Positions 4,506-41,079 of a stretch of DNA of 64,000 bases are shown in pieces (the first letter of the stretch is position 1; every line of letters begins with the position of its first letter). Both the position numbers and the translations under genes were made by a program. The notes under the pieces are model-generated. The model did not search any database. It worked only from the letters and a program-made list of their open reading frames with translations, and was not told the DNA's origin. The stretch comes from Prauserella flavalba (GTDB taxonomy: Bacteria > Actinomycetota > Actinomycetes > Mycobacteriales > Pseudonocardiaceae). The stretch lies in NCBI RefSeq assembly GCF_003202235.1, contig NZ_MASU01000005.1:1302001-1366000 (forward strand), read 5' to 3'.

Positions 4506-4511
4506 GCCGAG

Positions 4512-4598
4512 TTTTGTATACGAACCTTGTTTCGCTGGCGTTACTGTTGGTTCACTCGACGTTACGGACCCCGCGAGCAGGAACGTTTCGTATACGAT
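4512..4598. promoter_or_regulatory. Twin GntR-type operators upstream of the NCS2 permease
   Basis: Two palindromes flank the likely promoter. One has core TTGTATACGA (4514-4523) and the other is the perfect 10-mer TCGTATACGA (4588-4597). Their centres are about 74 bp apart. The GTATAC core fits FadR/GntR operators, and the only regulator next door is the GntR gene ending at 4599. Two spaced sites suggest cooperative binding or looping over the promoter of the permease operon. Not tested; the match is by eye. Confidence 0.6.
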
Positions 4599-5252
4599 CT
4601 AGCCATGATCGAGCTCGGCGAGCAGCGCCTCGTCCCGCGCGATGTGCTCCCCCATCAGGTAACCGGCCTGCACCGGCGAGCCGCTGAGGATCGCCTGTGC
4701 GATGGCGGCGTGGTCGCTCCAGGACGTGCCGGTGCGGGACTCCAGGCGCTGGTCGAAGATCCACGACACCCGGCTGAGCACCTGCGTGAGCATGATCTGG
4801 AGCTGGTGGTTGCCGGACGCTTCGGCGACGAGGCTGTGGAACCGCAGGATCAGCGGCGGCAGCTCGTCGTGTGCGTGGCTGAGGCCGGCCGAGCGGCCCA
4901 GCTCCACCACACGCGCCAGCTCACCGGCGACCTCGCCGCCCGCCCGCTCGGCGGCGAGCTGCGCCGCGAGCACCTCCAGCCCGCGCCGCACCTGCAGCAG
5001 CTCCAGCGCCGCCGCTCCCGACGTCGCCGAGACGGTCGCGCCCCGGTAGCGCACGAGCGTGACGAAACCCTCGCTCTGCAACTGGGACAACGCCTCCCGG
5101 ATCGGCACGCGGGACACGCCGAACCGCTCGGCCAGGTCGGCCTCGCGCAACCGGTCCCCCGGCGCGAGGCGGCCCGCCAGGATGTCCTCCCGCACCGCGT
5201 GCGCGATCGCCTCACGGGGCGCGGACTGGTTCGCATCCTCGGCAGCGGTCAC
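4599..5252 (-). CDS. GntR family (FCD/FadR-type) transcriptional regulator
   Basis: A 217-residue regulator with an N-terminal winged helix (about residues 10-75; LREADLAERFGVSRVPIREALSQL is the recognition helix block) and a C-terminal all-helical FCD ligand domain (about 85-210). The metal-binding pattern of FCD proteins is suggested by RFHSLVAEASGN and the late SDHAAI histidine. GTG start at 5252. The gene lies between the divergent allophanate hydrolase and the downstream permease-hydrolase operon on the same strand, so it is well placed to control both. GTATAC palindromes downstream at 4512-4598 are its probable targets. Effector unknown; cyanuric acid or biuret would be logical. Confidence 0.85.
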   Translation of the reverse strand: MTAAEDANQSAPREAIAHAVREDILAGRLAPGDRLREADLAERFGVSRVPIREALSQLQSEGFVTLVRYRGATVSATSGAAALELLQVRRGLEVLAAQLAAERAGGEVAGELARVVELGRSAGLSHAHDELPPLILRFHSLVAEASGNHQLQIMLTQVLSRVSWIFDQRLESRTGTSWSDHAAIAQAILSGSPVQAGYLMGEHIARDEALLAELDHG

Positions 5253-5299
5253 GCCCCGAGCCTAGCTTTCTGACCCGGCACCCCAACGGAAAGGACCCG

Positions 5300-6985: not shown

Positions 6986-7480
6986 TCAGCCGCGGCGCCT
7001 GCGGGTGGTGACCGAGCGCGGCGGCTGGGCACGCATGTGGTCGCGGACCCTGGTCATGATGTCGCCGAGAGCGGGAAGGTCCTTGTCGGACAGCGGCGCG
7101 AACAGCAGGTCGCGAACCACCTCGACGTGGCCGGGCAGGATCGCGGCGACCCGGGCGAGGCCGTCCTCGGTGATGGTGACGAGGGTGGCCCGCTGGTCGT
7201 CGGGACTGGGCCCCCGGGTGACGAGGCCGGCCTTCTCCAGCAGCCCGGCCTGGTGGGTCAGGCCGCTGCGGCTGTAGACCACCCCGTCGGCCAGCTCGGT
7301 CATCGTCAGCCTGCGTTCGGGCGTGTCGGCGAGGCGGGCGAGGAGCTGGAACTGGACGTAGCTCAGGCCGCCCGCCGCCCGTACCTGCTGCTCGACGGCG
7401 TGGTGCAGCAGGCTGACGGACTCCATGAGCGCGAAATACGTCGCCAGCTGCTCGGGTTCCAACGGGTCGGCCACTCGCAC
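6986..7480 (-). CDS. MarR family transcriptional regulator
   Basis: A 164-residue MarR/SlyA winged-helix protein. The core covers LSYVQFQLLARLADTPERRLTMTELADGV through the wing motif SPDDQRATLVTITEDG, which contains the DxRxxxxxxT signature. GTG start at 7480; the stop abuts the allophanate hydrolase stop with no gap (convergent). It is divergent from the quinone reductase gene, and the 77 bp between the starts contains two TTCGA-based palindromes that are natural MarR operators. It likely represses itself and the reductase/Ddn genes, with relief by a quinone, oxidant or phenolic ligand (inference from the family). Confidence 0.88.
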   Translation of the reverse strand: MRVADPLEPEQLATYFALMESVSLLHHAVEQQVRAAGGLSYVQFQLLARLADTPERRLTMTELADGVVYSRSGLTHQAGLLEKAGLVTRGPSPDDQRATLVTITEDGLARVAAILPGHVEVVRDLLFAPLSDKDLPALGDIMTRVRDHMRAQPPRSVTTRRRRG

Positions 7481-27943: not shown

Positions 27944-28746
27944 CGACGAAGATCCGTTTCGAAGGGGTCGGGCGCACGTTCCCGGTCCGGGGCGGCCGGG
28001 AGCGGCTGACGGCATTGGAGAGCATCGACCTGGACATCGCCGAGGGCGAGTTCACGGTCGTGGTCGGACCGAGCGGCTGCGGCAAATCCACGCTGCTGGA
28101 CCTGCTGGCGGGACTGGGAACCCCGTCGTCGGGCCGGGTCCTGCTCGACGGCCGACCGGTGACCGGGCCCGGGGTGGACCGCGGCATCGTCTTCCAGCAG
28201 TACGCGCTGCTGCCGTGGCGCACCGCGCAGGGCAACGTCGAGTTCGGTCTCGAGGCGACCGGGGTCCCGAAGCGGGAACGTGCCGAGCGGGCGCGGGAGT
28301 ACCTCGAGCTGGTGGACCTCGCCGCGTTCGCCGACCGGCACCCGCACGAGCTCTCCGGCGGCATGAAGCAGCGCGTGGCGATCGCGCGCAGCCTCGCCTA
28401 CGACCCGGACGTGCTGCTGATGGACGAGCCGTTCGCCGCGCTCGACGCCCAGACCCGCGAGTCGCTGCAGGACGAGCTGCGGCGCATCTGGCGGCGCACC
28501 GGCAAGACGATCGTGTTCATCACCCACGGAATCGACGAGGCCGTGTACCTCGGGCAGCGAGTCGCGGTGCTGACCTCGCGCCCCGGCCGCATCAAGTCCG
28601 TTGTGGACATCCAACTCGACCGGAGCGCGGCCGAGGACATCCGCTCGGCGCCGGAGTTCGCCCGGTACCGGCACGAGATCTGGACCCTGCTGCACGACGA
28701 GGTCGTGCGCGCCCAGCAGCTGGAAAAGGAGGCGGTGCCGGCATGA
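27940..28746 (+). CDS. ssuB: SsuB/TauB-type ABC transporter ATPase
   Basis: A 268-residue importer ATPase. Walker A GPSGCGKSTLLDLLAG, Q-loop FQQYALLPWRTAQGNV, signature LSGGMKQRVAIARSLAYDP, Walker B VLLMDEPFAALDAQTRE and switch VFITHGIDEAVYLGQR are all intact. LPWRTAQGNV and DEAVYL are typical of the nitrate/sulfonate/taurine class. ATG 27940 overlaps ssuA, and its own stop overlaps the permease start (ATGA). Confidence 0.9.
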   Translation: MTTKIRFEGVGRTFPVRGGRERLTALESIDLDIAEGEFTVVVGPSGCGKSTLLDLLAGLGTPSSGRVLLDGRPVTGPGVDRGIVFQQYALLPWRTAQGNVEFGLEATGVPKRERAERAREYLELVDLAAFADRHPHELSGGMKQRVAIARSLAYDPDVLLMDEPFAALDAQTRESLQDELRRIWRRTGKTIVFITHGIDEAVYLGQRVAVLTSRPGRIKSVVDIQLDRSAAEDIRSAPEFARYRHEIWTLLHDEVVRAQQLEKEAVPA

Positions 28747-29573
28747 GCGCCCCCACGATCGCCAAGCGGGACACGAGCGGGCCGGCGGGCTCCCGGCCTC
28801 GCACCGGCGCGGCCCGCAGGGCGGGGTCGGCGTTCTCGGGCATCGCCACCAGGTCGGCCGCCGTCCTCCTGCTGCTCGCGGTGTGGGAGCTCGCGCCGAG
28901 GACGGGACTGATCGACGCCACGTTCCTCACACCGTTCTCCGAGGTCGTGCTCGCACTGGGCGAGCTGGCGGCCAACGGGCAGCTCGCCGAGCACGTCCAG
29001 GCCAGCCTGACCCGTTCGCTGTCCGGGTTCGGCATCGCGGTGCTGCTCGCCGTGCCGCTCGGGATCCTCATCGGCTGGTACCGGACCGTCTCCGACGTGC
29101 TCACGCCGCTGGTGCAGGTGTTTCTCAACACCGCGGCCCTCGCCCTGCTCCCGGTGTTCGTCCTGGTGCTCGGCATCGGTGAGACGTCGAAGATCGCGAT
29201 CGTGGTCTACGCGTGCACGTGGCCGATCCTGCTGAACACGATCACCGCGGTGCGCAACGTGGACCCGACGTTGCTGAAGCTCGCGAGGTCGCTGGACCTG
29301 CCGCCGCTCGCCCTCTTCCGCAAGGTGATACTCCCCGCGTCGATCCCGACGATCTTCACGGGCCTGCGGCTCGCGGGTGCGGCCGCGATCGTCGTGGTGA
29401 TCGCCGCGGAGATGGTGGGAGCGAAGGCCGGGCTGGGCTTCCTCATCAACGATTCCCAGTACAACTTCGCCATCCCGTCGATGTACGCGGGCATCGTGGC
29501 CATCTCGGTCATCGGCGTGGGCTTCAACCAGCTGCTGGTGGTGTTCGAGCGACGCCTGACGAGCTGGAGGTGA
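28743..29573 (+). CDS. ssuC: SsuC/TauC-type ABC transporter permease
   Basis: A 276-residue permease with six predicted helices. The EAA loop is ARSLDLPPLALFRKVILPASIPTIFTGLRL, which contacts the ATPase. The N-terminus has about 35 polar residues before the first helix (SAAVLLLLAVWELAPRTG). ATG 28743 overlaps ssuB. Completes the sulfonate-type importer. Confidence 0.9.
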   Translation: MSAPTIAKRDTSGPAGSRPRTGAARRAGSAFSGIATRSAAVLLLLAVWELAPRTGLIDATFLTPFSEVVLALGELAANGQLAEHVQASLTRSLSGFGIAVLLAVPLGILIGWYRTVSDVLTPLVQVFLNTAALALLPVFVLVLGIGETSKIAIVVYACTWPILLNTITAVRNVDPTLLKLARSLDLPPLALFRKVILPASIPTIFTGLRLAGAAAIVVVIAAEMVGAKAGLGFLINDSQYNFAIPSMYAGIVAISVIGVGFNQLLVVFERRLTSWR

Positions 29574-29616
29574 GCGCGGCCGGGCGAGATCGGCGGTGAG
29601 TGCCTATCGTACGGGC

Positions 29617-30012
29617 ATGCCGAAGATTCGCGGCCGTCGCCGCGCACGCCGGATCGCCGCACACGCCCTCGGCGCCACACTGGCGTTCGCGGGCACGGCG
29701 CACCTGACGTTCGCCCGCGAGGAGTTCCAGGCTCAGGTGCCCTCGTGGGTGCCGCTGGACGCCGACGACGTGGTCCTGCCGTCCGGGGCCGCCGAGATAG
29801 CGCTCGGCGCGGGCCTGCTCGCGCTGCCGAGGCAACGCCGCAGGCTGGGTGTGCTCACAGCGGCGTTCTTCGCCGCGGTGTTCCCCGGCAACATCGCGCA
29901 GTACCGGAACAGGGTCGACGCCTTCGGCCTGGACACCGACCGCAAACGCGCGGTGCGCCTCGCGGGCCAGCCACTCCTGGTGGCGTGGGCGCTGTGGTCG
30001 ACACGGGACTAG
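29617..30012 (+). CDS. DoxX-like small membrane protein
   Basis: A 131-residue protein with a basic N-terminus (KIRGRRRARR) and four hydrophobic helices, ending LLVAWALWSTRD. LGATLAFAGTAHLTFAREEF and FPGNIAQYRNRVDAFGLDTD are typical of the DoxX-like family of unknown function. ATG 29617 has a TATCGT hexamer about 6 bases upstream and no ribosome site, which suggests a leaderless mRNA; an upstream GTG at 29596 is the alternative. Eleven bp separate it from the HAD gene. Confidence 0.72.
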   Translation: MPKIRGRRRARRIAAHALGATLAFAGTAHLTFAREEFQAQVPSWVPLDADDVVLPSGAAEIALGAGLLALPRQRRRLGVLTAAFFAAVFPGNIAQYRNRVDAFGLDTDRKRAVRLAGQPLLVAWALWSTRD

Positions 30013-30023
30013 GGAGCCGGAGT

Positions 30024-30770
30024 ATGTCCACAGTGGATATCGAGGTCGTGCTCTTCGACACCTTCGGCACGGTCGTCGACTGGCGCACCGGCGTGGCCGC
30101 GGCGGTCGGCGAGTTCGCGGCCAGGCACGGGCTCGACCTGGACGGCGAGGAGTTCGCGGACCGGTGGCGTGCCCGCTACCAGCCGAGCATGGAGCCGGTG
30201 CGTACCGGTGAGCGGGACTTCGTGTCCCTCGACGTGCTCCACGAGGAGAACCTCCGCGCGGTGCTCGGCGAGTACGGCGTCGACCCTGGGACGATCGCGC
30301 CCCGGGAGCTGACGTGGCTCAACGAGGCGTGGCACCGGCTCCCGCCGTGGCCGGACAGCGTCCCCGGCCTGCGGCGGCTGCGCGAGCACGTGCTGATCGG
30401 GCCGCTGTCCAACGGCAACCTCGTCCTGCTGGCGCGCATGGCCAAGCACGCGGGGCTGCCGTGGGACATCGTGCTGGGCTCGGACGTCACCAGGGCCTAC
30501 AAGCCGCGGCCGGAGGCGTACCTGCGCGCCGCGGCGCTACTGGGGCTCGCACCGGGCCGGATCATGCTCGCCGCCGCGCACAACGGCGACCTGCACGCGG
30601 CCCGGTCGGCCGGCCTGCGGACCGCGTTCATCCCGAGGCCGGCCGAGTTCGGTCCCGGCCAGACCCGCGACCTGGAGCCCGAGAGCGACTGGGACCTCGT
30701 GGCCTCCGACATCGGCGAGCTCGCCACGCACTTCACCGGCCGCACCTGGACCGCCGACGGGCACCTGTGA
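30024..30770 (+). CDS. HAD type II 2-haloacid dehalogenase-like hydrolase
   Basis: A 248-residue HAD hydrolase. Motif I EVVLFDTFGTVVDW (nucleophile Asp12), motif II GPLSNGNLVLLARM, motif III TRAYKPRPEAYLRA (Lys) and motif IV MLAAAHNGDLHAARSAGLRTAF. The family cleaves 2-haloacids with inversion, but many members have other substrates. It is an intact paralogue of the frameshifted gene at 24430-25133. ATG 30024 follows AGGGAGCCGGAGT. The start codon overlaps a copy of the TCCACAGTGGA palindrome (30027-30037). Confidence 0.82.
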   Translation: MSTVDIEVVLFDTFGTVVDWRTGVAAAVGEFAARHGLDLDGEEFADRWRARYQPSMEPVRTGERDFVSLDVLHEENLRAVLGEYGVDPGTIAPRELTWLNEAWHRLPPWPDSVPGLRRLREHVLIGPLSNGNLVLLARMAKHAGLPWDIVLGSDVTRAYKPRPEAYLRAAALLGLAPGRIMLAAAHNGDLHAARSAGLRTAFIPRPAEFGPGQTRDLEPESDWDLVASDIGELATHFTGRTWTADGHL

Positions 30771-30775
30771 GCCAC

Positions 30776-30835
30776 CGCAGTGAAGGCCACCTTGCCTGCG
30801 TTCAACGCAGTGAAGGTGGCCTTGCCTGCGTTGAA
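30776..30835. repeat. Tandem 30-bp AGTGAAGG repeat
   Basis: Two adjacent 30-bp units, 30776-30805 and 30806-30835, share CGCAGTGAAGG, CCTTGCCTGCGTT and a final AA. They differ mainly in the central triplet, CCA in the first and TGG in the second, which are reverse complements of each other. They follow the HAD gene directly. Confidence 0.85.
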
Positions 30836-30890
30836 TCAACACAGCGGCGCGTCAGCGTCTCCGTCTGGGTGGTGGTGGGAGACGGGTGGG

Positions 30891-30915
30891 CGCAGTGAAG
30901 GTGGCCTTCACTGCG
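30891..30915. repeat. AGTGAAGG palindrome, probable terminator between convergent genes
   Basis: CGCAGTGAAGG (30891-30901), loop TGG, CCTTCACTGCG (30905-30915): perfect 11-bp arms. It is the full palindrome of which the two upstream 30-bp units are imperfect copies. It lies 17 bp from the aldehyde dehydrogenase stop and can end transcription from either side. Confidence 0.75.
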
Positions 30916-30931
30916 GATCGGGGCTACCGGG

Positions 30932-32371
30932 TCACTGGTGCGCGATGCTGACCGCGCGGGTGTTGAGGTAGGCCTCCATCGCCTCGGGGCCGCCCTCCGA
31001 GCCGTAGCCCGAGTCCTTGACGCCGCCGAAGGGCAGCTCGGCCGAGGGCATGGCGGGCATGTTGACCCACAGCATGCCGACCTCGACCCTGCGGGTGAGC
31101 CGGTCGGCCGTGGCCAGGGAGCGGGTGAAAGCGTACCCGGCGAGCCCGTAGGAAAGGCGGTTGGCCTCGGTGATCGCCTCGTCCAGATCCTGGAAGCCGC
31201 GGATCGCCGCCACGGGGCCGAAGGGCTCCTCGTTGAACAGCTTGGCCTCGGCCGGGACGTCGTCGAGCACGGTGGGCGCCCAGAAGTTGCCCTCGTCGCC
31301 GATGCGCTTGCCGCCCGAGAGGACCGTGGCTCCCCGCTCGACGGCGTCGGCGTACAGCGCCGACATGGCGTCGACCCGCCGGGTGTTGGCGAGCGGCCCC
31401 ATCTCGGTGCCCTCGGCGAGGCCGTCGCCGACGTTGAGGCCGGTGGCGACCTCGGCGAACGCCTTGGCGAAGTCCTGGCGAACCGACTCGTGCACGAGGA
31501 ACCGCGTCGGGGAGATGCACACCTGGCCCGCGTTGCGGAACTTCGCCCTGCTCATGGTCTTGACGGCCAGCTCGATGTCGGCGTCCTCGCAGACGATCAC
31601 CGGGGCGTGGCCGCCCAGCTCCATCGACACCCGCTTCATGTGCCGGCCCGCGAGCGCGGCGAGCTGCTTGCCGACCGCGGTCGACCCGGTGAAGGTGATC
31701 TTGCGGATCACCGGGTGGGCGATCAGGTACTCCGAGATCTCGGCCGGGTTGCCGTACACCAGCGCGAGCACCCCGGCGGGCAGGCCGGCGTCCTGGAACG
31801 CGCGCACCAGCGCGGCCGGGCTGGCCGGAGTCTCCTCGGGCGCCTTCACGATCATCGAGCAGCCCGCGGCCAGCCCGGCACCGAGCTTGCGCACGACCTG
31901 GTTGATCGGGAAGTTCCACGGCGTGAACGCCGCCACCGGGCCCACCGGGTCCTTGATCACCAGCTGCTGGATCGCGGGGTTGGCGCGGTGCGGGACGAGG
32001 CGGCCGTACACGCGCAGGCCCTCGTCGGCGAACCAGTCGATGATGTCCGCGCCCGCCAGGATCTCGCCCTTGGCCTCCACCAGCGGCTTGCCCTGCTCCT
32101 GCGTCATCAGCGCCGCGATCTCGTCGACGCGGGACCGCACCAGCTCGGCCGCCTTGCGCATGATCTTGCTCCGCTGCGCGGGCGTGTAGTCGCGCCACAC
32201 CTCGAAGCCGCGGCGCACCGAGTCGGCCGCGCGGTCGAGGTCCTGCGTGGTCGCGTGCGCGACCCGCCCGATGACCTGGCCGGTCGCCGGGTTCTGCACG
32301 TCGATCGTGCGCCCTTCCGCGGCATCCAGCCACTGGTCGTCGATGAAGAGCTGGGTGTCCGGATAGGTCAT
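30932..32371 (-). CDS. NAD(P)-dependent semialdehyde dehydrogenase (succinate or alpha-ketoglutarate semialdehyde)
   Basis: A 479-residue aldehyde dehydrogenase. [20 protein letters not shown] and [10 protein letters not shown] bind the cofactor, [13 protein letters not shown] is the Rossmann glycine motif, MELGGHAP contains the general-base Glu, and [14 protein letters not shown] contains the catalytic Cys. The overall type is GabD-like succinate-semialdehyde or alpha-ketoglutarate-semialdehyde dehydrogenase. As the last gene of a sugar-acid operon, alpha-ketoglutarate semialdehyde from a non-phosphorylative route is attractive, but succinate semialdehyde cannot be excluded. ATG 32371 follows GAGGGAGGCTTCTCG. 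It has its own 90-bp leader, with a GTGAT-gg-ATCAC palindrome at 32439-32450. Confidence 0.85.
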
Positions 32372-32461
32372 CGAGAAGCCTCCCTCGTGAATGTGCGCTC
32401 CCCCGACCGTATCTTGCGGCCCCGGTCACGCACGTCATGTGATGGATCACGCTCGGCCCGG

Positions 32462-33877
32462 TCACGCTCCGGCGATCGTGACACCGAAGACCTCCAGCAC
32501 CGTGTACACGGCGAGCAGGAAGATGCCGATGCTGCTGACGACGAACGCCGCGGTGAGCCACCGGTTGCGCCGGAAGCGAGGGTCGACCTCGAGGGTGCGC
32601 AGCCGCCACACGGCGACGAGCACCGCGAGCAGGAAGATGCCGGTCGCGATCGCGCCGATCTGCATCATCACCAGCGGCGACTGGACGAACAGGAACATGA
32701 GCAGCCAGAGCACCGGAAGGCAGACGGTGAGGATCCGCAGGATCCGCGCCCGGACCTTGACGTCGTGCCAGTCGATCACTCCCAGCAGGCCGAGGGTGTT
32801 GGTCCACAGCCGTGGAACCGCGGCCGCGGAGGCGATGTTGGTGGAGAACAGCACCACGATCGCCCCGAACAGGAACAGGGTCTCCGCCCACGGGCCCAGT
32901 GTGTCGGTGTAGATCCGGGACACCGTGGTGATCACGGCGTTACCCTCGGGCACGAGGTTCTGCGGATGCAGCACGCTGGCGCCGACCACGTAGAACGACA
33001 GGGTGGTGACCGTGCAGATGAGCCAGGACACGAACACGTCCAGCTGCATCACCTTGATCCAGCCCTCGGCGCGCCGGGCCCGCTCCTCGCTGCCGTCGTC
33101 GGGGCCGGTCCAGCGCGCGTAGCCCTTCTCGAGGCACCAGTACGTGTAGTTGGTCATGTCGTCGGCGCCGACCCCCGTCGAGCCGAACATCGCGACCGCG
33201 AGCCCGACGGTGCCCGCCGGGATCGCGAAGCTCAGCCCGTCGGCGAAGTCCCCGGGGCTGTAGGCGAACGGCGTGAACGGCAGCACCAGCACGATCGCCA
33301 CGGTGCTGAGCGTGAAGATCGCGACCGACCACGTGGTGAGCGCCTCGACCACGCTGTAGCGGTTGCTGCGCAACAGCCCGATCGTCAGCGCCGTGATGAC
33401 GACCGCCCACGTGGCGAGCGAGCCGCTGCTCAGCGGCTCTCCCACGATCGGCCACAGGATCGAGCACGCGGCGGCGGTGCCGCCGATGACGCCGCCGCGC
33501 TGGAAGTTCTTGGCGAGGTCGAGCCCGATCCACAGCCAGTTGATCCAGCCCATGCGGCCGATCCTCGGCGGGACGGTGCTGTAGCCGGCGAGCGCGGTCT
33601 TGCCGTTGAGGATGGCCCAGCGGGCGAGCTCCATCTGCACCCACACCTTGACGGTGGCGCCGACGATCACCATCCACAGCAGGACGAATCCCGCGCGGGC
33701 CCCGAGCGAGGTCGTGACGATCAGCTCGCCCGAGCCCACCACGGACGCGGTGAGGATGATGCCCGGCCCCAGGTAACGCAGCCTGCCGCGCAGCGTCGTC
33801 GGCGCCTCCTTGACGTCCTCGGCTCGCAGCCGGTAGGCGTCCTCGAGCTCCGCGCTGGGCACCTCTTGGGTTGACAT
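32462..33877 (-). CDS. Nramp-fold transporter lacking the canonical metal site
   Basis: A 471-residue membrane protein of the Nramp superfamily, with about 11-12 helices and a long polar N-terminus. The TM1 region RLRYLGPGIILTASVVGSGE aligns with the GPG..DPGN block of MntH, but the metal-binding DPGN is replaced by VGSG (47-50). In TM6 the MPHN motif is replaced by MFGSTGVGADDM (230-241). The Asp, Asn and Met ligands for Mn/Fe are therefore absent, so calling it a manganese transporter would be unsafe. It sits inside the sugar-acid operon, 47 bp behind the aldolase, so it may carry the organic acid or a different cation (inference). ATG 33877 with AAAGGAAGAC upstream. Confidence 0.8.
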   Translation of the reverse strand: MSTQEVPSAELEDAYRLRAEDVKEAPTTLRGRLRYLGPGIILTASVVGSGELIVTTSLGARAGFVLLWMVIVGATVKVWVQMELARWAILNGKTALAGYSTVPPRIGRMGWINWLWIGLDLAKNFQRGGVIGGTAAACSILWPIVGEPLSSGSLATWAVVITALTIGLLRSNRYSVVEALTTWSVAIFTLSTVAIVLVLPFTPFAYSPGDFADGLSFAIPAGTVGLAVAMFGSTGVGADDMTNYTYWCLEKGYARWTGPDDGSEERARRAEGWIKVMQLDVFVSWLICTVTTLSFYVVGASVLHPQNLVPEGNAVITTVSRIYTDTLGPWAETLFLFGAIVVLFSTNIASAAAVPRLWTNTLGLLGVIDWHDVKVRARILRILTVCLPVLWLLMFLFVQSPLVMMQIGAIATGIFLLAVLVAVWRLRTLEVDPRFRRNRWLTAAFVVSSIGIFLLAVYTVLEVFGVTIAGA

Positions 33878-33924
33878 GGGAAGTCTTCCTTTCGACTCGG
33901 CGTCGTTGCCGGTGTCCGCCGCCG

Positions 33925-34542
33925 TCAGCGGGTGGCGGCGAGGAGGCGGCGGGCCTCGGCCCTGAGCGCGTCCTGGTCGGCCGGATCGCCGAGCAGCTGA
34001 ACGCCGACCCCGACGCCCGCGCACCCCTCGGCCAGGCACTCGCGCGCGAGGTCGGCCCCGACCCCGCCGGTGGCCAGCAGCGGCACCTCGGGCAGCGGGC
34101 CCTTGAGCTGCCGGATGTAGCCGGCCCCCACCGGGCCGATCGGGAAGACCTTCACCAGGTCGGCGCCGAGGCGCGTGGCGTGGACGATCTCCGTGGGCGT
34201 GAACGCGCCCGGCACCACGCCGAGGCCGAGCGCCTTGGCCCGTGCGATCACGGCCTCGTCCACGTGCGGGCAGACGATGAACGTCGCGCCCGCGTCGGCG
34301 GCCCGCGAGACGTCGTCGGCGGTCATCACGGTCCCCGCGCCGATGGGGGCCTCGTGGCCGTACTTCTCGGCCAGCGCCGTGATGGCGGCGAACGGCTCCC
34401 CACCGTTGAGGGTCACCTCGAACAGCCGGATGCCCTCCTCGCGGAGCAGTTCGGTCAGCTCGAGGCACTGCCCCGCGGACTGCCCCCGGTAGATCACCAT
34501 CGCGCGGTGCTCCAGCACCCGGCTCAGCAGGTCGTTGGTCAT
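33925..34542 (-). CDS. KDPG/KDPGal-type 2-keto-3-deoxy-aldonate aldolase
   Basis: A 205-residue class I aldolase of the Eda/DgoA family. LFEVTLNGGEPFAAI carries the catalytic Glu, GAGTVMTADDV is the phosphate-loop region, and GADLVKVFPIGPVGAGYI carries the Schiff-base Lys followed by the conserved FP. GGVGADLARECLAEG closes the barrel. It splits a 2-keto-3-deoxy-(6-phospho)aldonate into pyruvate and an aldehyde. No sugar kinase is in this operon, so the substrate may be unphosphorylated or phosphorylated elsewhere. Twenty bp separate it from the dehydratase gene; ATG 34542 after GAGAGGACCGACC. Confidence 0.86.
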   Translation of the reverse strand: MTNDLLSRVLEHRAMVIYRGQSAGQCLELTELLREEGIRLFEVTLNGGEPFAAITALAEKYGHEAPIGAGTVMTADDVSRAADAGATFIVCPHVDEAVIARAKALGLGVVPGAFTPTEIVHATRLGADLVKVFPIGPVGAGYIRQLKGPLPEVPLLATGGVGADLARECLAEGCAGVGVGVQLLGDPADQDALRAEARRLLAATR

Positions 34543-34562
34543 GGTCGGTCCTCTCTCGAGAG

Positions 34563-36296
34563 TCAGAGGTGCCTGCGGGGCACGGCGTGTCCCCGCCTGC
34601 CCACCAGGAAGTCGAAGTCGGCGCCCGTGTCGGCCTGGCGGACGTGCTCGCGGTACAGCCACGCGTAGCCGGAACCGGTGTTCTCCGCCTGCGTCAGTTC
34701 GGCCGCGCGGCGGCGCAGCTCGTCCTCGGGCACGTCCATGTCGATGCGGCGGGCGGGGACGTCGAGCGTCACCCGGTCGCCGGTGCGCAGCAGCGCCAGC
34801 GGGCCGCCCGCGGCGGCCTCCGGCGCCACGTGCAGCACCACCGTCCCGTACGAGGTGCCGCTCATCCGGCCGTCCGTGATCCGGACCATGTCGCGGACAC
34901 CGGCGTCGAGCAGCTTCTTCGGGATGGCCAGGTTGCCGATCTCGGGCATGCCGGGATATCCGGACGGGCCCGCGTTGCGCACCACGAGCACGGTCGAGGC
35001 GTCCACCGGCAGGTCGGGCGAGTCGGCCTGCGCGTGGTATTCCTCGATCGTGTCGAACACGAGCGCCGTCCCGGTGTGCCGCACCAGTTCCCCGGACGCC
35101 GCGGACACCTTGATCACCGCACCGTCGGGAGCGAGGTTGCCCCGCAGCACCGCGGTGTGGTTCCCGGCCTCGCGCAGCGGCTCCGCGCGGGTGTGGATCA
35201 CGCCGGTGTTCCAGTTCTCGGCGTCGGCGCAGTTCTCGCCGATGCTGCGGCCCGTGACGGTGGCCGCGTCGGTGTGCAGCAGCTCGCCCAGCTCCTTGAT
35301 CACGGCGGGCAGGCCGCCCGCGTAGGCGAAGTCCTCCATCAGGAACCGGCCGGACGGGAGCAGGTCCACCAGCAGCGGGACCGTCGCGGCGAGGGTGTCG
35401 AAGTCGTCGAGGGAGAGCTCCACCTCGGCGCGGCCCGCGATCGCGAGCAGGTGCACCACGGCGTTGGTGGAACCGCCGATGGCCGCGTTGACCCGGATGG
35501 CGTTCTCGAACGAACGGCGGTCCAGAATGGACGACGGCGTGAGCCCTTCCTCCACCATCGCCACGATCCGGCTGCCCGCCTCCTCGGCGATGCGGTGCCT
35601 GCGGGCGTCGACGGCGGGGATCGCGGCGCTCCCGGGCAGCGAGAGGCCGAGCGCCTCGGCGAGGCACGCCATCGTCGACGCGGTGCCCATCGTGGTGCAG
35701 TGCCCCGCGCTGCGGGAGAGACACGCCTCGGCCGTGGTGAAGTCGGCCTGGCTCATCCGGCCCGCGCGTACCTCTTCGCTGAACTGCCACACGTGGGTGC
35801 CCGAACCGGCGTCGCAGCCGCGGAACTTGCCGTTGAGCATCGGGCCGCCGGTCACCATCACCGCGGGCAGGTCGGCGCTCAGTGCACCCATCAGCTGTGC
35901 GGGCACGGTCTTGTCGCAGCCGCCGAGCAGCACGACCCCGTCGAGCGGGTTGGCGCGCAGGGTTTCCTCGACGTCCATCGCCATGAGGTTGCGGAACAGC
36001 ATCGCCGAGGGCCGCATGAGCGTCTCGCCGAGCGAGATCGTCGGGAACTCCAGCGGGGTCCCGCCCGCCATCAGCACGCCGCGCTTGACCGCCTCGGCCA
36101 CCTGGCGCAGATGCGCGTTGCAGGGCGCCAGGTCCGACCAGCTGTTGCAGATGCCGATCACCGGCCTGCCGTCGAACATCGACCCCGAGTAGCCCTGGTT
36201 GTACATCTTCGAGCGGTGGACGAAGCCGAGCTTGCCGTCGAGGCCGAACCACGCGGCGCTGCGCCGGGGAGAAACGTCGTTGTCTGGATGCATCAT
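34563..36296 (-). CDS. IlvD/Edd family sugar-acid (aldonate) dehydratase
   Basis: A 577-residue Fe-S dehydratase. Cluster cysteines are in GICNSWSDLAPCNAHL and LLGGCDKTVPAQL; the Lys of DKT is the one carbamylated in the family. AIGGSTNAVVHLLAIAGRA and ITDGRMSGTSYGTVVLH are active-site blocks. NSWSDLAPCN is closer to the pentonate/hexonate dehydratases (L-arabinonate, D-xylonate, D-galactonate) than to valine-pathway IlvD. It makes a 2-keto-3-deoxy acid for the adjacent aldolase. Two adjacent ATG codons (36296, 36293) are possible starts; GGAG lies 5 bases before the second. Promoter and CATGCAA motifs lie immediately upstream. Confidence 0.87.
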   Translation of the reverse strand: MMHPDNDVSPRRSAAWFGLDGKLGFVHRSKMYNQGYSGSMFDGRPVIGICNSWSDLAPCNAHLRQVAEAVKRGVLMAGGTPLEFPTISLGETLMRPSAMLFRNLMAMDVEETLRANPLDGVVLLGGCDKTVPAQLMGALSADLPAVMVTGGPMLNGKFRGCDAGSGTHVWQFSEEVRAGRMSQADFTTAEACLSRSAGHCTTMGTASTMACLAEALGLSLPGSAAIPAVDARRHRIAEEAGSRIVAMVEEGLTPSSILDRRSFENAIRVNAAIGGSTNAVVHLLAIAGRAEVELSLDDFDTLAATVPLLVDLLPSGRFLMEDFAYAGGLPAVIKELGELLHTDAATVTGRSIGENCADAENWNTGVIHTRAEPLREAGNHTAVLRGNLAPDGAVIKVSAASGELVRHTGTALVFDTIEEYHAQADSPDLPVDASTVLVVRNAGPSGYPGMPEIGNLAIPKKLLDAGVRDMVRITDGRMSGTSYGTVVLHVAPEAAAGGPLALLRTGDRVTLDVPARRIDMDVPEDELRRRAAELTQAENTGSGYAWLYREHVRQADTGADFDFLVGRRGHAVPRRHL

Positions 36297-36318
36297 CGCT
36301 CCACAGTAAGGGCACATC

Positions 36319-36369
36319 TGCATGCAAAGCAGATCTGCAGCATAGATATTCTCGAAGTTACATGCAATG
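36319..36369. promoter_or_regulatory. CATGCAA operator motifs upstream of the dehydratase gene
   Basis: CTGCATGCAAAG (36319-36330) and GTTACATGCAATG (36357-36369) share CATGCAA with a third site, GTTTACATGCAAAC (38223-38236), next to the GntR start. A perfect GCAGATCTGC palindrome lies between the first two. The gap is AT-rich relative to its flanks and starts a second transcription unit inside the sugar-acid cluster. FadR-type GntR from 37546-38214 is the expected ligand. Confidence 0.55.
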
Positions 36370-36406
36370 TGCGAGCAGAAGGAGCCCGCGGGGGAACCAC
36401 CGCCGG

Positions 36407-37549
36407 TCAGGTGTGCGAGGGCGCGGCCACCTCGGTCTCGGTCACCGCGGCGACCGCCTGCTCGTCCAACCGCACGCCGAGGCCCGGCAGCCCGGGCAGG
36501 TCGAGCATGCCCCGCTCGGGCACGGGAGGACCGGCGAGCAGCGGGTCGCGCAGCGGGTTGTCCCTGACGTCGTATTCGATGCCGGCCACCGCCTCCGCCA
36601 TCGCGGCGAGCTGCAGCGTCGCGGCGAAGGCCACCGCGCCGCCGTACAGGTGCGGCAGCACGGACTTGCCGTGTGCCTCGGCGAGCGCGCAGACCGCGAG
36701 CGCCTCGGTGAGCCCGCCGGTCTTGGCGAGATCCGGTTGCAGCACCGCGATCGCTGGCGACGCCGCGAAGTCGCGGAACTCCCCGGCGCCGTAGAGGTTC
36801 TCCCCCGTCGCGATGGGCAGGCCGGTGCGCCGGTGCAGCTCTTCGAGCCCGGCGAGCGGGTTGCCGCGCACGGGCTCCTCGATCCACTCCACGCCCGCGT
36901 CCCGCAGCAGCGGTGCCATCGCGACGGCCTCGGCCACGTCCCACGCCTGGTTGGCGTCGGCGTAGAGGGTCACGCCGGGCCCGACCGCCTCGCGCGCCTG
37001 CGCCAGGTTCCGCTCGTCCTTGGCCCTGCCGAAGCCGAGCTTGACCTTCACGGCCGTGTGCCCGGCCTCGACGCACTCGTGCGCCTTCTCGCCGACGTCC
37101 TCGGGTCCGAGGCTGCTGGCGTAGACGGGGATCCGGTCGCGGACGCGGCCGCCTGCGAGGGTGCTCACCGCGGCCCCGGCCCGCAGGCCCGCGAGGTCCC
37201 ACAGCGCGAGGTCCGCGCCGCTGATCGCCTGCCGGATCGGCCCCGGGGCTCCCCACTGCCTGCCGAGCGGGTCCAGCCGCGCGCACAGCCGCCGGTGCAG
37301 CGCCGAGATCCTGGTGGCGTCCTCGCCGAGCAGCAGCGGGAACACGCCGTCGCGCAAGGTCGCGACGCGCTCCTCCGCGGCCCACGGCGGATAGTTGATC
37401 CAGCTCTCGCCCCGGCCGGTGAGACCGTCCTCCGTGGACACCTCCACCAGCACGATCGACCGGTCGCGCAGCGGCGAGAACGACATCGCGATCCCGTCGT
37501 TCACCGGTGCGCGCAGCACCCGCAGGCGGGCATCGACGATCCGCGTCAC
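36407..37549 (-). CDS. Enolase-superfamily (mandelate racemase type) sugar-acid dehydratase
   Basis: A 380-residue enolase-superfamily protein. The N-terminal capping domain is followed by a barrel with the Lys pair HTAVKVKLGFG, metal ligands in LYADANQAW, EWIEEPV and ATGENLYG, and LQPDLAKTGGLTEAL on the sixth strand. HLYGGAVAFAA supplies a late His. These are residues of the MLE/MR group; galactonate-type dehydratases are the best functional guess given the operon. GTG 37549 overlaps the GntR stop as GTGA. The presence of both an enolase-type and an IlvD-type dehydratase suggests two entry substrates or two epimers. Confidence 0.83.
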   Translation of the reverse strand: MTRIVDARLRVLRAPVNDGIAMSFSPLRDRSIVLVEVSTEDGLTGRGESWINYPPWAAEERVATLRDGVFPLLLGEDATRISALHRRLCARLDPLGRQWGAPGPIRQAISGADLALWDLAGLRAGAAVSTLAGGRVRDRIPVYASSLGPEDVGEKAHECVEAGHTAVKVKLGFGRAKDERNLAQAREAVGPGVTLYADANQAWDVAEAVAMAPLLRDAGVEWIEEPVRGNPLAGLEELHRRTGLPIATGENLYGAGEFRDFAASPAIAVLQPDLAKTGGLTEALAVCALAEAHGKSVLPHLYGGAVAFAATLQLAAMAEAVAGIEYDVRDNPLRDPLLAGPPVPERGMLDLPGLPGLGVRLDEQAVAAVTETEVAAPSHT

Positions 37550-38214
37550 TCCCCGCCCTCCAGCTGCCGCGACAGCACGCTGCGCAGGCGGAAGATGTGC
37601 GCCCTGGCCGCCTGTTCCGCCGCGACGGCGTCGCCGGACTCGATGGCCGTGAGGATCGCGCGGTGGTCGTCGATGGCCTGCCTCGGGCCCGCCGTCACCG
37701 TGGTGGTGCGCATGGCCAGCCGGACCTGGGTCTGCACGTCGTCGAGCAGCCGGATGACCTCGGGGTTCCCGGCGGCCTCCCGGATGAGCCGGTGAAAGCG
37801 CAGGTCCGCCTCGGTACTCGCGGCGAGGTCGGCGGTGCGCATCGCGGCCTCGTGCTCGTCGAGCGCCTCCTTCAGCGCGCGCACGAGCTTGCGGCCGGCG
37901 TTCTCGACGGCCAGCCGTGCCGCGAGCCCTTCCAGCACCTCGCGGATCTCGTAGATCGAGACGAGCTCGGCGAGGCCGACGCTCGCGACCACTGCTCCCC
38001 GGCGCGGCTCCTCCCTGGCGAGCCGTTCCTGGACGAGCCGGAGCACCGCGTCCCGCACCGGGCTCCGGCTGACGTCGAGCGACTCGGCGAGCGCGGGCAC
38101 ACTGAGCCGCGCGCCCGGGGCCAGCTCGCCGGTGAAGATCATCTCGCGCAGGCGCTCGTAGACCGCGTCGGCGACCCTGGTCCGGGCCGCGGTCTTCTCG
38201 TTCACTCCGACCAT
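37546..38214 (-). CDS. GntR family (FadR/FCD) regulator of the sugar-acid operon
   Basis: A 222-residue FCD-type GntR. The winged helix covers RVADAVYERLREMIFTGELA and LSVPALAESLDVSRSPVRDA. The FCD ligand domain (about 90-215) contains DLRFHRLIREAAGNPEV and the late IDDHRAILTAI metal histidine. ATG 38214 is chosen because further upstream codons fall in the operator. It heads the operon, with the enolase gene overlapping as GTGA. Its probable binding site GTTTACATGCAAAC is 9 bp upstream of the start, and like motifs precede the IlvD-type gene. Confidence 0.87.
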   Translation of the reverse strand: MVGVNEKTAARTRVADAVYERLREMIFTGELAPGARLSVPALAESLDVSRSPVRDAVLRLVQERLAREEPRRGAVVASVGLAELVSIYEIREVLEGLAARLAVENAGRKLVRALKEALDEHEAAMRTADLAASTEADLRFHRLIREAAGNPEVIRLLDDVQTQVRLAMRTTTVTAGPRQAIDDHRAILTAIESGDAVAAEQAARAHIFRLRSVLSRQLEGGE

Positions 38215-38222
38215 GTCCGGCA

Positions 38223-38236
38223 GTTTACATGCAAAC
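38223..38236. promoter_or_regulatory. Autoregulatory GntR operator
   Basis: GTTTACATGCAAAC is a near-perfect palindrome (reverse complement GTTTGCATGTAAAC). It sits 9 bp before the GntR start, in the only 30 bp between this gene and the amidohydrolase stop. It shares CATGCAA with the sites at 36319-36369. Confidence 0.6.
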
Positions 38237-38244
38237 ACCCACGA

Positions 38245-39771
38245 TTACATTCCCGGTGCTACGGGCGCCGGTTCGCCGGACCAGCGGTGCACGCCGACGT
38301 CCTCGGCGGCGCAGGCCCGGTACATCCGCTCGAACGCCTCGTGGAAGACGGTGTTCTCCCGCTCCACACGGTCCTGTTCGGCCTGGATGCCGGGCAGCCG
38401 CTCCCGCAGCTCGGCCAGCAGCGCGTCCTCGTCGACGGTCGTGACCCGTCCGTCCTCCACCACGAGCTCGCCCCCGATCATGACCTGCCGCAGCGAGCTG
38501 CCGTTCTCCGAGTACACCAGCTGCAGGTCGAGCCTGTTGCGCGGCGTGAACGCGAGCGTGCTGAGGTCGTAGACGAGCAGGTCGGCCTTCTTGCCCACCT
38601 CCAGCGAGCCGACGTCGGGATGCAGCCGCGCGCTGCGGGCACCGCCGAGTGTCGCGGCGCGCAGTACCTCGTCCGCGGTCGGCCAGGTCTCGTGGCCGGG
38701 CCCGGTCACCTTGTGCAGCAACGCGGCGGCCTTGATCACCTCGGGCAGCCGAGGCGTGTCGCTGCTGGAGCAACCGTCCGAACCGAGACCGAGGGTCACC
38801 CCGGCGTCGTGGTAGCGGCGCCACGGCGCGATGCCGGAGCCCAGTTTCAGGTTGGACACCGGGTTGTGCGAGACGCACACGTCGTACTCGGCGAGGGTGT
38901 CGATGTCGGCGTCGGTGGCCCAGATTCCGTGCGCGAGCGTGGTGTTCGCGGACAGCGCGCCGATCCGGCGCAGGTGCTCGACCAGCGTCGTGCCGTAGAA
39001 CTCGCGACCGGTCACCGCCTGCGTCTTGGTCTCCAGCACGTGGATGTGGCATTCGGCGTCGTGCTCCAGCGCGAGCTCGGTCGCCCCGGCGAGCAGGTCG
39101 TCGGTGCAGCGCTGCGGTCCGGACGGCGCGAGCATGTACCGCAGCCTGCCCCCGGCCCTGCCCGCGTACCGGCGGAACGCCTCCGCGCTGAAGTCCAGGT
39201 ACTCCCCCGCGCTCAGCAGGGGCGCCGAACGGACTCGCTCCGCCACCTCGGACGGCAGCCACTGCGCGGCATACGGCACGGTGTCGATGAACGGCCGGTT
39301 GATGACGTGGCCGGAGATGTTGGCCCGGACGCCGACCGTGTCGTAGGCGTCGAACACGGCGTCCAGCTGGGCGAAGTCCTGGCTCGGCGTCTCCAGCACG
39401 TCGTCCACGAGCGTGGTGACGCCGGAGCGCACCGACTCCACGGCGAACAGCAGACTCCGCAGGCGCACCAGGTCCGGCGGCAGCGGTGCCGCGCCGAGGA
39501 TCGGGTACGAGTACAGCATCCACAGCTCGAGCGGCAGGTTGTCGTAGCGGCCCTTCGCGAGATACTCCCACGAGTGCGTGTGAGCGTTGACGAAACCCGG
39601 GCACACCAGCCGATCGCGTCCATTGAGGACGGTGTCGGTGTCGCGGAGGGTCACGCTCGCGCCGATCTCGGCGATCAGCCCGTCCTCGATCCGGATGCTG
39701 CGCGTGACGGGCGTGCTTCCCGTCGCCGCGTCCATCGTGATGACCTCCGCGTCGCGGATGACGATGGCCAT
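38245..39771 (-). CDS. Amidohydrolase (aminohydrolase/deaminase subgroup, AtzB/TrzN/MTA-deaminase-like)
   Basis: A 508-residue metal-dependent amidohydrolase. Metal and catalytic motifs in order: VNAHTHSWEYL (HxH), AECHIHVLETK (strand 5), TTLAHGIWATDADID (strand 6) and GLGSDGCSSSDTPRLPEV (strand 8 Asp). The C-terminal beta-sandwich returns in SLEVGKKADLLVYDLSTL. This mononuclear subgroup removes amino or chloro groups from nucleobases and s-triazines. It is 9 bp behind a cytosine-type permease, so an imported amino-heterocycle is the likely substrate. The cyanuric acid operon in the same window makes an aminotriazine tempting but unproven. ATG 39771. Confidence 0.8.
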   Translation of the reverse strand: MAIVIRDAEVITMDAATGSTPVTRSIRIEDGLIAEIGASVTLRDTDTVLNGRDRLVCPGFVNAHTHSWEYLAKGRYDNLPLELWMLYSYPILGAAPLPPDLVRLRSLLFAVESVRSGVTTLVDDVLETPSQDFAQLDAVFDAYDTVGVRANISGHVINRPFIDTVPYAAQWLPSEVAERVRSAPLLSAGEYLDFSAEAFRRYAGRAGGRLRYMLAPSGPQRCTDDLLAGATELALEHDAECHIHVLETKTQAVTGREFYGTTLVEHLRRIGALSANTTLAHGIWATDADIDTLAEYDVCVSHNPVSNLKLGSGIAPWRRYHDAGVTLGLGSDGCSSSDTPRLPEVIKAAALLHKVTGPGHETWPTADEVLRAATLGGARSARLHPDVGSLEVGKKADLLVYDLSTLAFTPRNRLDLQLVYSENGSSLRQVMIGGELVVEDGRVTTVDEDALLAELRERLPGIQAEQDRVERENTVFHEAFERMYRACAAEDVGVHRWSGEPAPVAPGM

Positions 39772-39780
39772 GACCGTCTC

Positions 39781-41079
39781 CTACCTGCCTTCCCGCGTGG
39801 GGCGCCCGGCCAGCCCCCGCAGAGCCGGGGCCAGCAGCATGGCGACGACGATTCCCTGTACGGCAGGGATTCCGGCGTCGAAGGTGGCACCCGCGATGGC
39901 GACCGCGGTGCCGCCGAGGTAGGCCAGCAGACCCGGCCAGCACACCAGCGGGACGGAGGCGAGGTCCGTGCCCGGGTCGCGCCGCCTCCACACGAACACG
40001 AACGTGCCGATGATGGCTCCGCCCAGCGGCGGGATGAGCACGCCGAGCACGGTGAGGAACGCCGTCAGCGCGTCGGCGATCCCGGTGATCGCCATGGCGA
40101 TGCCGATCGCGACACCGCCGATGACGAAGGGCCGCTTGTCCGGCTTGCCGGTCAGCTCCGCGCCGGCGACCCCGAACGCGTACGCCGCGTTGTCGTTGGT
40201 GGTCCACAGGTTCGCGATGATCAGGAACACGGCGACGCCCACCGAGCCCATGAGCATGAGGACGTTGGCGAAGTCGGGTTCGCCGTAGCCGATCGCGCCG
40301 ACACCGCCGAAGAAGAACATGGCCGCCTGCACGAGCAGGATGGTGCACGCGGTGATGACGAACGCGGGCCTGCCTCCACTGGCGAAGCGGGTCCAGTTGC
40401 CGATCTGGGTGCCGCCGCTGATGAAGGTGCCGATCATCAGGGTCAGCGCGACCCCCACGCTCGTGTCGCCGGTGCCGGCGTGGTCGAACAGCCCATCCCA
40501 GCCGCCCGCCTCACCGACGGCCGATACGGAGATCCACACGCACAGCGCCGTCATCAGCGGCACGGAGATCCAGGAGAGGAACTCGATACCCCGGAAGCCC
40601 TTGTAGGCGGTGACGGCCATCGCGACACCGCCCACCACGGCGATCGGCCAGGTGGTCTGCCAGCCGAACGCGCCGCCGAGGAGGGTCGCGAGCACGCCGA
40701 TGGTGATGCCGTACCAACCGACCTGGGTGCCGCCCAGCAGGACCGACGCCCATTTGCCGCCCAGCTTGCCGAGCACGAGCCGCGAGAGCAGGACCGTGGT
40801 CAGCCCGGTGCGGGCGCTCGCGACGCCCATGGTCGCGATGTAGCAGGCCAGCACGAGCGCCGCGGCCACGGCGAGGCCGAGGAACTGGGCGAAGGCGAAG
40901 TCCACGGCGACCTGGCCGCCGGTGACCATCGTGGGCGTGAAGAAACCGAACCCGGCGATGACGACCGCCACGGAGGCGACGCCCTTGCGTTCGGCGATGG
41001 GGACGCGGTCGAGCGGGTAGTCCCTGTCGATGGGCGACGGCGGCGCGGACGCGGGACGGGCAGGGGGCACTGCTGTCAC
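39781..41079 (-). CDS. codB: NCS1-family cytosine permease-like transporter
   Basis: A 432-residue CodB-type transporter with about 12 helices. VAVVIAGFGFFTPTMVTGGQ, GTFISGGTQIGNWTRFASGG (the conserved NCS1 loop) and NLWTTNDNAAYAFGVAGAEL match cytosine permease. GTG 41079. It is upstream of the amidohydrolase with a 9-bp gap, the codBA-like arrangement in which permease and deaminase are paired. The PucR gene is divergent and likely controls the pair. Substrate could be cytosine or another amino-heterocycle. Confidence 0.83.
   Translation of the reverse strand: MTAVPPARPASAPPSPIDRDYPLDRVPIAERKGVASVAVVIAGFGFFTPTMVTGGQVAVDFAFAQFLGLAVAAALVLACYIATMGVASARTGLTTVLLSRLVLGKLGGKWASVLLGGTQVGWYGITIGVLATLLGGAFGWQTTWPIAVVGGVAMAVTAYKGFRGIEFLSWISVPLMTALCVWISVSAVGEAGGWDGLFDHAGTGDTSVGVALTLMIGTFISGGTQIGNWTRFASGGRPAFVITACTILLVQAAMFFFGGVGAIGYGEPDFANVLMLMGSVGVAVFLIIANLWTTNDNAAYAFGVAGAELTGKPDKRPFVIGGVAIGIAMAITGIADALTAFLTVLGVLIPPLGGAIIGTFVFVWRRRDPGTDLASVPLVCWPGLLAYLGGTAVAIAGATFDAGIPAVQGIVVAMLLAPALRGLAGRPTREGR

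Follow-up and report, generated by a model that had tools for sequence, protein, structure and literature searches.

The 64,000-nucleotide stretch of Prauserella flavalba DNA considered here (RefSeq assembly GCF_003202235.1, contig NZ_MASU01000005.1, forward-strand positions 1,302,001 to 1,366,000; hereafter the window, numbered from its first letter) carries a gene for a transporter related to the Nramp family of metal carriers. The gene lies in a run that also encodes a regulator and four putative enzymes of sugar-acid catabolism (Table 1). The run from gntR to the aldehyde dehydrogenase (ALDH) gene occupies a single strand, with one 4-bp overlap followed by gaps of approximately 110, 20, 47, and 90 bp, two of the gene starts being inferred. 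Its enzymes are of the aldonate type, and the sequence does not name the acid; models for KDPG and KDPGal aldolases, like those for the dehydratases, matched below their cut-offs (149–153 bits for the aldolase). Since there is no sugar kinase within the run, a non-phosphorylative route is the likelier one. As argued below, the transporter probably uses the Nramp fold for the secondary import of a sugar-acid anion of the aldonate type.

Table 1. Genes of the run that contains the Nramp-related transporter, in window coordinates.
Gene product	Position	Strand	Remarks
GntR/FCD regulator	37546..38238	minus	4-bp overlap with the enolase-superfamily gene
Enolase-superfamily (MR_MLE) dehydratase-like protein	36407..37549	minus	top model galactonate dehydratase, 160.9 bits (cut-off 311)
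IlvD/EDD-family dehydratase	~34563..36296 (start inferred)	minus	L-arabinonate dehydratase model, 824.7 bits (cut-off 882)
KDPG/KHG-type class I aldolase (PF01081)	~33925..34542 (start inferred)	minus	ends 47 bp before the transporter start
Nramp-related transporter, 471 aa	32462..33877	minus	reading frame 33877-32465, stop 32462-32464
Aldehyde dehydrogenase (PF00171)	30932..32371	minus	90 bp downstream of the transporter

The transporter has the Nramp-type version of the LeuT (LeuT/APC) fold. It matched the NCBIfam Nramp model NF037982 with 114.5 bits (cut-off 50) and, in a search of the genome, Pfam PF01566 with 49.6 bits (cut-off 29.8); hmmscan of the protein at 1e-3 listed no Pfam family, and there was no Pfam or NCBIfam match to any amino-acid carrier family. 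Profile–profile alignment against canonical Nramps gave a probability of 96.5%, with a gap inside transmembrane helix (TM) 3. The canonical Nramp model TIGR01197 reached 26.3 bits in the genome search (23 bits by hmmscan) against a cut-off of 272.5, and at E ≤0.001 the window protein was its sole match, so that no canonical DPGN Nramp was found in this genome. In all, six Nramp-related genes occur there, including that of the window. Among the matches listed, the closest named relative of the protein is from Prauserella endophytica, at 97% identity.

The canonical metal site is missing. Where canonical Nramps have DPGN, TM1 of the window protein has G48-S49-G50-E51, and in TM6 the sequence T234-G235-V236-G237-A238-D239 replaces ATVMPH, with V236-G237-A238 (or D239, depending on the gap) in the place of MPH. 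An open reading frame with DPGN and MPH was found at 12/12 canonical control loci, the script having demanded those motifs. The preliminary description of this DNA had proposed that the DPGN/MPH site was lost from a retained Nramp fold and that aldonate-type genes lay alongside, and the motifs, family models, and operon all confirm it. TM3 carries a polar stripe, D120-K123-Q126-R127, whose register relative to D131/E134 of DraNramp varies between alignments.

Homologues came from a scan of named genomes, of which the best 80 of at least 564 relatives were used, leaving distant members under-sampled. A quick-mode maximum likelihood tree, built with NRMT sequences not included, united 81 rows in one group, clade A (SH-aLRT 99). 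Within it, the window protein and the proteins of six loci with a similar operon (Type I) formed one group (100) nested in a group of 48 rows (92), here called the sugar-acid group, next to which stood a sister group of 31 rows (100). Two unplaced rows, L059 and L061, were assigned to the sugar-acid group by their TM3/TM6 residues and operon, and L085, typed as I from its IlvD gene, fell among the sisters. Paralogs sat on very long branches, which makes their placement with respect to canonical Nramps unreliable.

The six Type I loci (6/80; L023-L028) encode transporters with 73–97% identity to that of the window. The full gntR-MR_MLE-IlvD-aldolase-Nramp order recurred in three other Prauserella loci (L023-L025). 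Tamaricihabitans (L026) had MR_MLE-IlvD-Nramp with no aldolase detected, Streptosporangium (L027) had IlvD-aldolase-Nramp with no MR_MLE gene found, and Streptomyces lycii (L028) had the latter order with MR_MLE and GntR genes divergent; the ALDH gene was present in L023 and L025 only. Most remaining close relatives in the sugar-acid group occupy a different operon, Type II, with a core of aldo-keto reductase, HpcH/HpaI aldolase, and D-2-hydroxyacid dehydrogenase genes. A BNR-repeat protein is sometimes present as well, and genes for a DUF1537 acid-sugar kinase, PdxA, and DeoR frequently lie close by. At L062, L049, and L050, Type II genes were detected by tblastn. Models for D-threonate kinase and D-threonate-phosphate dehydrogenase matched Type II genes below cut-off, and the DUF1537/PdxA pair is characteristic of four-carbon acid-sugar catabolism. 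In L034 and L050, enolase-superfamily genes also adjoin the transporter.

Other features of these loci were noted in passing. A BNR-repeat (sialidase-like, PF13088) protein was found by profile in or near the sugar-acid operon at eight loci (L030, L031, L034, L036, L039, L040, L049, and L096), and the sugar-acid clusters of L050 (6457-7749) and L096 (7666-8964) each include another, dissimilar Nramp-related gene at a distance of a few kb from the clade member. Near the sister-group Nramp gene of three Saccharopolyspora loci (L086, 8409-9731; L087; L088) is a 440-amino acid protein with no Pfam match.

The operon-context survey of homologues suggested in the preliminary description was carried out mainly by tblastn (gene callers missed genes), and loci whose flank on one side was shorter than 3 kb were left out: 7 of 49 in the sugar-acid group (L028, L032, L035, L042, L047, L052, L074) and 6 of 31 among the sisters (L079, L090, L091, L094, L101, L102). 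Of eight enzyme families, at least one occurred within 8 kb of the transporter at 42/42 fully flanked loci of the sugar-acid group, at least two at 39, and at least three at 34. The corresponding counts were 7, 3, and 1 for the 25 sister loci and 3, 0, and 0 for 15 control stretches of 20 kb from this genome, of which 14 were distributed along a single contig. For two or more families, sugar-acid group versus controls, the Fisher p of 4e-11 overstates independence, because the same loci supplied the list of families, all controls were taken from a single genome, and close Streptomyces relatives account for many of the loci. Without the generic aldo-keto reductase and 2-hydroxyacid dehydrogenase, the link stayed strong, with at least one of the six more specific families at 39/42 loci as against 6/25 sisters and 2/15 controls. 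The association with sugar-acid enzymes is conserved in the group; it spans several actinobacterial families and holds in both of the unrelated kinds of operon. It is this convergence of two unrelated operon types, along with the enolase-superfamily neighbours of L034 and L050, on one transporter clade that provides the strongest argument.

The residues of the transporter change along with its context. G48, G50, and E51 were kept in 81/81 rows of clade A (S49 in 78/81); D239 was likewise invariant, and position 240 was always D or E. Both D120 and R127 were present in 48/48 rows of the sugar-acid group, and in 50/50 when the unplaced Type II rows L059 and L061 were included, as against 0/31 sisters, in which position 120 was Ala in 30 rows and Gly in 1, while position 127 was Ile, Val, Leu, or Met in 29/31 and Arg in none. 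Position 243 was Thr or Asn in 48/48 sugar-acid rows and Phe in 27/31 sisters. By the rule used, 18 positions divided the two groups, some of which reflect mere divergence; four are charged, namely R32 in a short helix preceding TM1, R266 at the end of a helix, and D120 and R127 within TM3. In LeuT-fold carriers, TM3 lines the substrate cavity. We read the D120/K123/Q126/R127 stripe and Thr/Asn243 as a putative sugar-acid site, in which basic residues would serve the carboxylate and Asp120 and Thr/Asn243 the hydroxyls. The GSG turn of TM1 may be comparable to the turn that binds the carboxylate in AdiC and other APC amino-acid carriers.

From these features, a working mechanism can be proposed, in which substrate identity, coupling ion, and direction of transport are all inferred. 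From outside, a C5-C6 aldonate without phosphate (for Type II relatives, C4 to C6) would enter the cavity formed by TM1, TM3, TM6, and TM8. The TM1 GSG turn and/or TM3 Lys123/Arg127 would hold its carboxylate, and polar residues including Asp120 and Thr/Asn243 would hold its hydroxyls. The invariant acids Glu51 and Asp239 would carry a coupling cation, either H+ or Na+. Once inside the cell, the acid would be dehydrated by the enolase-superfamily or IlvD/EDD enzyme to a 2-keto-3-deoxy acid, which the aldolase would split into pyruvate and an aldehyde; the latter would then be oxidised by the ALDH. The GntR/FCD regulator may sense the acid or its product. A literature search found no transport measurement for this branch and, among the titles and abstracts listed (with subscription journals mostly outside coverage), no report that assigns sugar acids or oxalate to a protein of the Nramp family.

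Several observations weigh against sugar-acid import. None of the eight families was seen at 18/25 fully flanked sister loci, and three loci of the sugar-acid group itself (L065, L066, L068) showed the generic 2-hydroxyacid dehydrogenase only; the origin of the family list, the single-genome controls, and the many close Streptomyces relatives count here as well. The predicted model draws TM1 of the window protein as one helix. There is also competition for the role of importer. Six Type II operons (L030, L031, L034, L036, L039, L040) hold genes that look like an ATP-binding cassette (ABC) importer, judged by two permeases of 6–7 TMs beside genes of about 500 and twice about 270 amino acids, with families not tested, and a hydropathy count found another polytopic protein in the operons of L029, L051, and L096, so the argument from a missing transporter is weaker at these nine loci. 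A different idea is that the protein is instead an organic-acid exporter or antiporter that relieves the build-up of pathway acids while another system handles uptake. That idea is highly improbable, given that the same hydropathy count found no other polytopic protein in the called operon at any of the six Type I loci or at most Type II loci.

In the window itself, gntR is preceded by an amidohydrolase gene and an NCS1-type permease gene (38245-41079), which share its strand and leave gaps of just 6 and 9 bp, and a further difficulty is that the run could begin further upstream, so that the NCS1 permease could share the transcript. A scan for promoters and terminators detected no terminator and a lone σ70-like site on the opposite strand, and three intergenic stretches yielded only short, uninformative inverted repeats. 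By tblastn, the permease was not found within the 10-kb flanks of L023-L028, and an amidohydrolase fragment turned up in L023 only; the pair is no fixed part of the system. A PucR-type regulator gene lies divergently at 41312, beside the amidohydrolase and NCS1 (cytosine-permease-like) genes, and the three may represent a nucleobase-type module, possibly running into the sugar-acid operon.

The enzymes themselves raise another objection. HpcH/HpaI, MR_MLE, and IlvD enzymes are generally metal-dependent (Mg2+ or Mn2+), and supply of a metal cofactor would yield the same neighbourhood. Conceivably, then, the transporter could import Mg2+ or Mn2+ through E51, D239, and E/D240 for the operon's metal-dependent enzymes (enolase superfamily, IlvD/EDD, HpcH/HpaI), and the conservation of these acids in 81/81 clade members fits such a role, as does the carriage of Mg2+ by EleNRMT on the same fold. 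Moreover, one study describes YcsG, which is similarly placed in a 5-oxoprolinase operon, as raising cell Mn2+ when overexpressed and re-assigns it from an earlier 5-oxoproline annotation to Mn2+ import (PMC10448178), so operon context alone can mislead. Even so, a cation importer is unlikely. According to a mutagenesis study, DraNramp strictly requires Asp56, does not tolerate Glu at 59, and loses Mn2+ transport with D56G (PMC13060092), and where NRMT proteins retain an Asp in TM1 the window protein has Gly. Neither a metalloregulator among the scanned neighbours nor an MgtE domain among ten neighbour proteins was found at the window, and window positions 28000-40000 gave no Rfam match, M-box riboswitch included. 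A profile built from five DtxR/MntR-type regulators next to canonical Nramps, of which there is one near 5/8 canonical genes in the survey stretches, matched 1/80 clade loci (L065, 6261-6926) and none in the stretches of 34 other Nramp-related genes. Similarly, an MgtE_N-type profile matched 0/80 clade loci; it marks a presumed Mg2+ branch (L184, L189-L191, L193, L194; more weakly L185 and L186, and weakly control stretch L135). The regulators that do occur at clade loci are of GntR/FCD and DeoR types, and a metal carrier would have no need for D120 and R127 to switch with the pathway. Of the two substrates offered in the preliminary description, an organic acid or a non-transition cation, the first is therefore favoured by the context survey and the TM3 changes that track it, while the missing NRMT Asp and the Rfam, MgtE_N, and DtxR/MntR results leave the second without support.

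A compromise between these views is that the sugar acid enters as a metal chelate (M2+-aldonate), with acid and cation both being substrates, much as CitM-type carriers take up metal-citrate. Acidic E51 and D239 in TM1 and TM6 beside basic K123 and R127 in TM3 could hold a chelate, and such an activity would reconcile the 5-oxoproline and Mn2+ claims made for PxpT and YcsG. The same two acids could equally bind H+ or Na+, and chelate import, too, seems improbable. Import of the sugar-acid anion itself remains the preferred reading.

The transport of an organic acid by this fold would not be without precedent, contrary to the preliminary description, which had called the activity undescribed. 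PxpT of Corynebacterium glutamicum, a homologue of YcsG, is needed for growth on 5-oxoproline, and pxpT alone complements; its authors leave metal transport possible (PMC13274462). YcsG of Bacillus subtilis had earlier been annotated likewise (PMC10448178), and this pair is the sole case found in the literature search. Both are Nramp-family proteins of 5-oxoprolinase operons and are backed by genetic data, contested (Mn2+) in the case of YcsG, whereas the window protein belongs to a different clade, with sugar-acid enzymes and no pxp genes beside it; the PxpB/PxpC-type and hydro-lyase genes of this genome are found at L127, next to a different Nramp-related gene. The Mg2+ carriers NrmT and EleNRMT have DxxG in TM1 and TxxA/T in TM6, as opposed to GSGE with no Asp in the window protein, and the M-box or MgtE-domain partner genes for which NRMT is known are absent from the window as searched. 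Canonical Nramp/MntH proteins (SLC11) are set apart by the two metal motifs and the TIGR01197 score, and APC carriers such as AdiC, ApcT, and LAT1 by their amino-acid substrates, the window protein having a predicted sugar-acid one. Galactonate carriers of the DgoT type (SLC17, major facilitator superfamily) would fill an equivalent role alongside enzymes of similar kinds, but on an unrelated fold, and are functional analogues only.

Proteins of the wider Nramp-related assemblage, which lack DPGN and MPH, are described in published work as paraphyletic (PMC12873925) and as an outgroup of "orphan and NRMT types" (PMC10606218); a 2026 preprint regards its aligned sequences as likely metal transporters and the specificity of most Nramp-related proteins as unknown (PMC13060092). 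A search with NF037982 matched 78 of 149 genomes of the phylum, and 40 stretches hand-chosen from the listed places held 34 non-canonical Nramp-related and 8 canonical genes; some neighbours in these stretches, L165 included, may be mis-called. A carboxylate-metabolism gene was present within three genes, on either strand, of 15/34 non-canonical genes, or 13 without the weak cases of malate synthase (L173) and a DHDPS-family enzyme (L192), the comparison being only the 8 canonical genes, none of which had one by eye. The remaining 19 were presumed Mg2+-type, lone, or without annotation.

The kinds of acid indicated are diverse. Galactarate/altronate dehydratases of approximately 870–900 amino acids (the galactarate dehydratase model has 507 positions) adjoin Nramp-related genes in L156 (both genes, 3070-7210) and L157 (4290-8534), and in L187 (8520-13324) such a gene (PF01566, 100.8 bits) is followed by 3-dehydro-L-gulonate 2-dehydrogenase, 2-hydroxyacid dehydrogenase, and glucarate dehydratase genes. 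LUD-domain and cysteine-rich proteins like those of lutABC (L-lactate utilisation) lie beside GSGE(F/Y/W)-type genes in L155 (9869-12703), L156 (10045-12972), and L178 (9740-12513), and L155 also has a DUF1537 kinase and BKACE nearby. HyuA/B-type hydantoinase/oxoprolinase or PxpA genes accompany both genes of L174 as well as L181 and L183, in some cases together with a DUF1445-type hydro-lyase. At L159, L160, and L161, the neighbours include oxalate-oxidoreductase-like subunits, identified each time from the top-scoring model although its cut-off was never reached, and paralog L124 of this genome (9372-10778) is preceded by genes for a thiamine pyrophosphate enzyme, a class III CoA-transferase, and a CoA ligase. 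These last four loci share a distinct type of TM1, ALGVGMGES/ALGVGLGET, possibly that of an oxalate or 2-oxoacid carrier. Two further oddities are L177 (4514-9358), where the Nramp-related protein adjoins cobalamin-type genes (CobQ-like according to Pfam, with CobU and CbiB recognised by eye) and is possibly a cobalt- or cobinamide-linked carrier, and L188 (8190-9518), whose TM1 has DDDPGG, neither DPGN nor GxGE.

Taken together, this survey suggests that organic-acid transport is common, and perhaps ancestral, among Nramp-related proteins. A bolder version, advanced here only tentatively, is that most of the outgroup without metal ligands, the Mg2+ branch apart, may be organic-acid carriers that handle aldonates, four-carbon acid sugars, galactarate/altronate, glucarate, oxalate, lactate, or 5-oxoproline according to clade. 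In that case, the fold would first have transported carboxylates, using a glycine-rich TM1 turn like that of APC carriers, and DPGN/MPH metal transport would have arisen later.

Nramp-related proteins are widespread, and the model that matches them, NF037982, labels them divalent metal transporters. If the branch described here does carry sugar acids, many automatic annotations would be wrong, a missing transporter of aldonate pathways would have been found, and the origin of metal selectivity in Nramps would become testable. The finding also bears on the dispute over YcsG and PxpT, that is, 5-oxoproline versus Mn2+. Finally, the bolder version, if true, would overturn the metal label for much of the Nramp-related outgroup.
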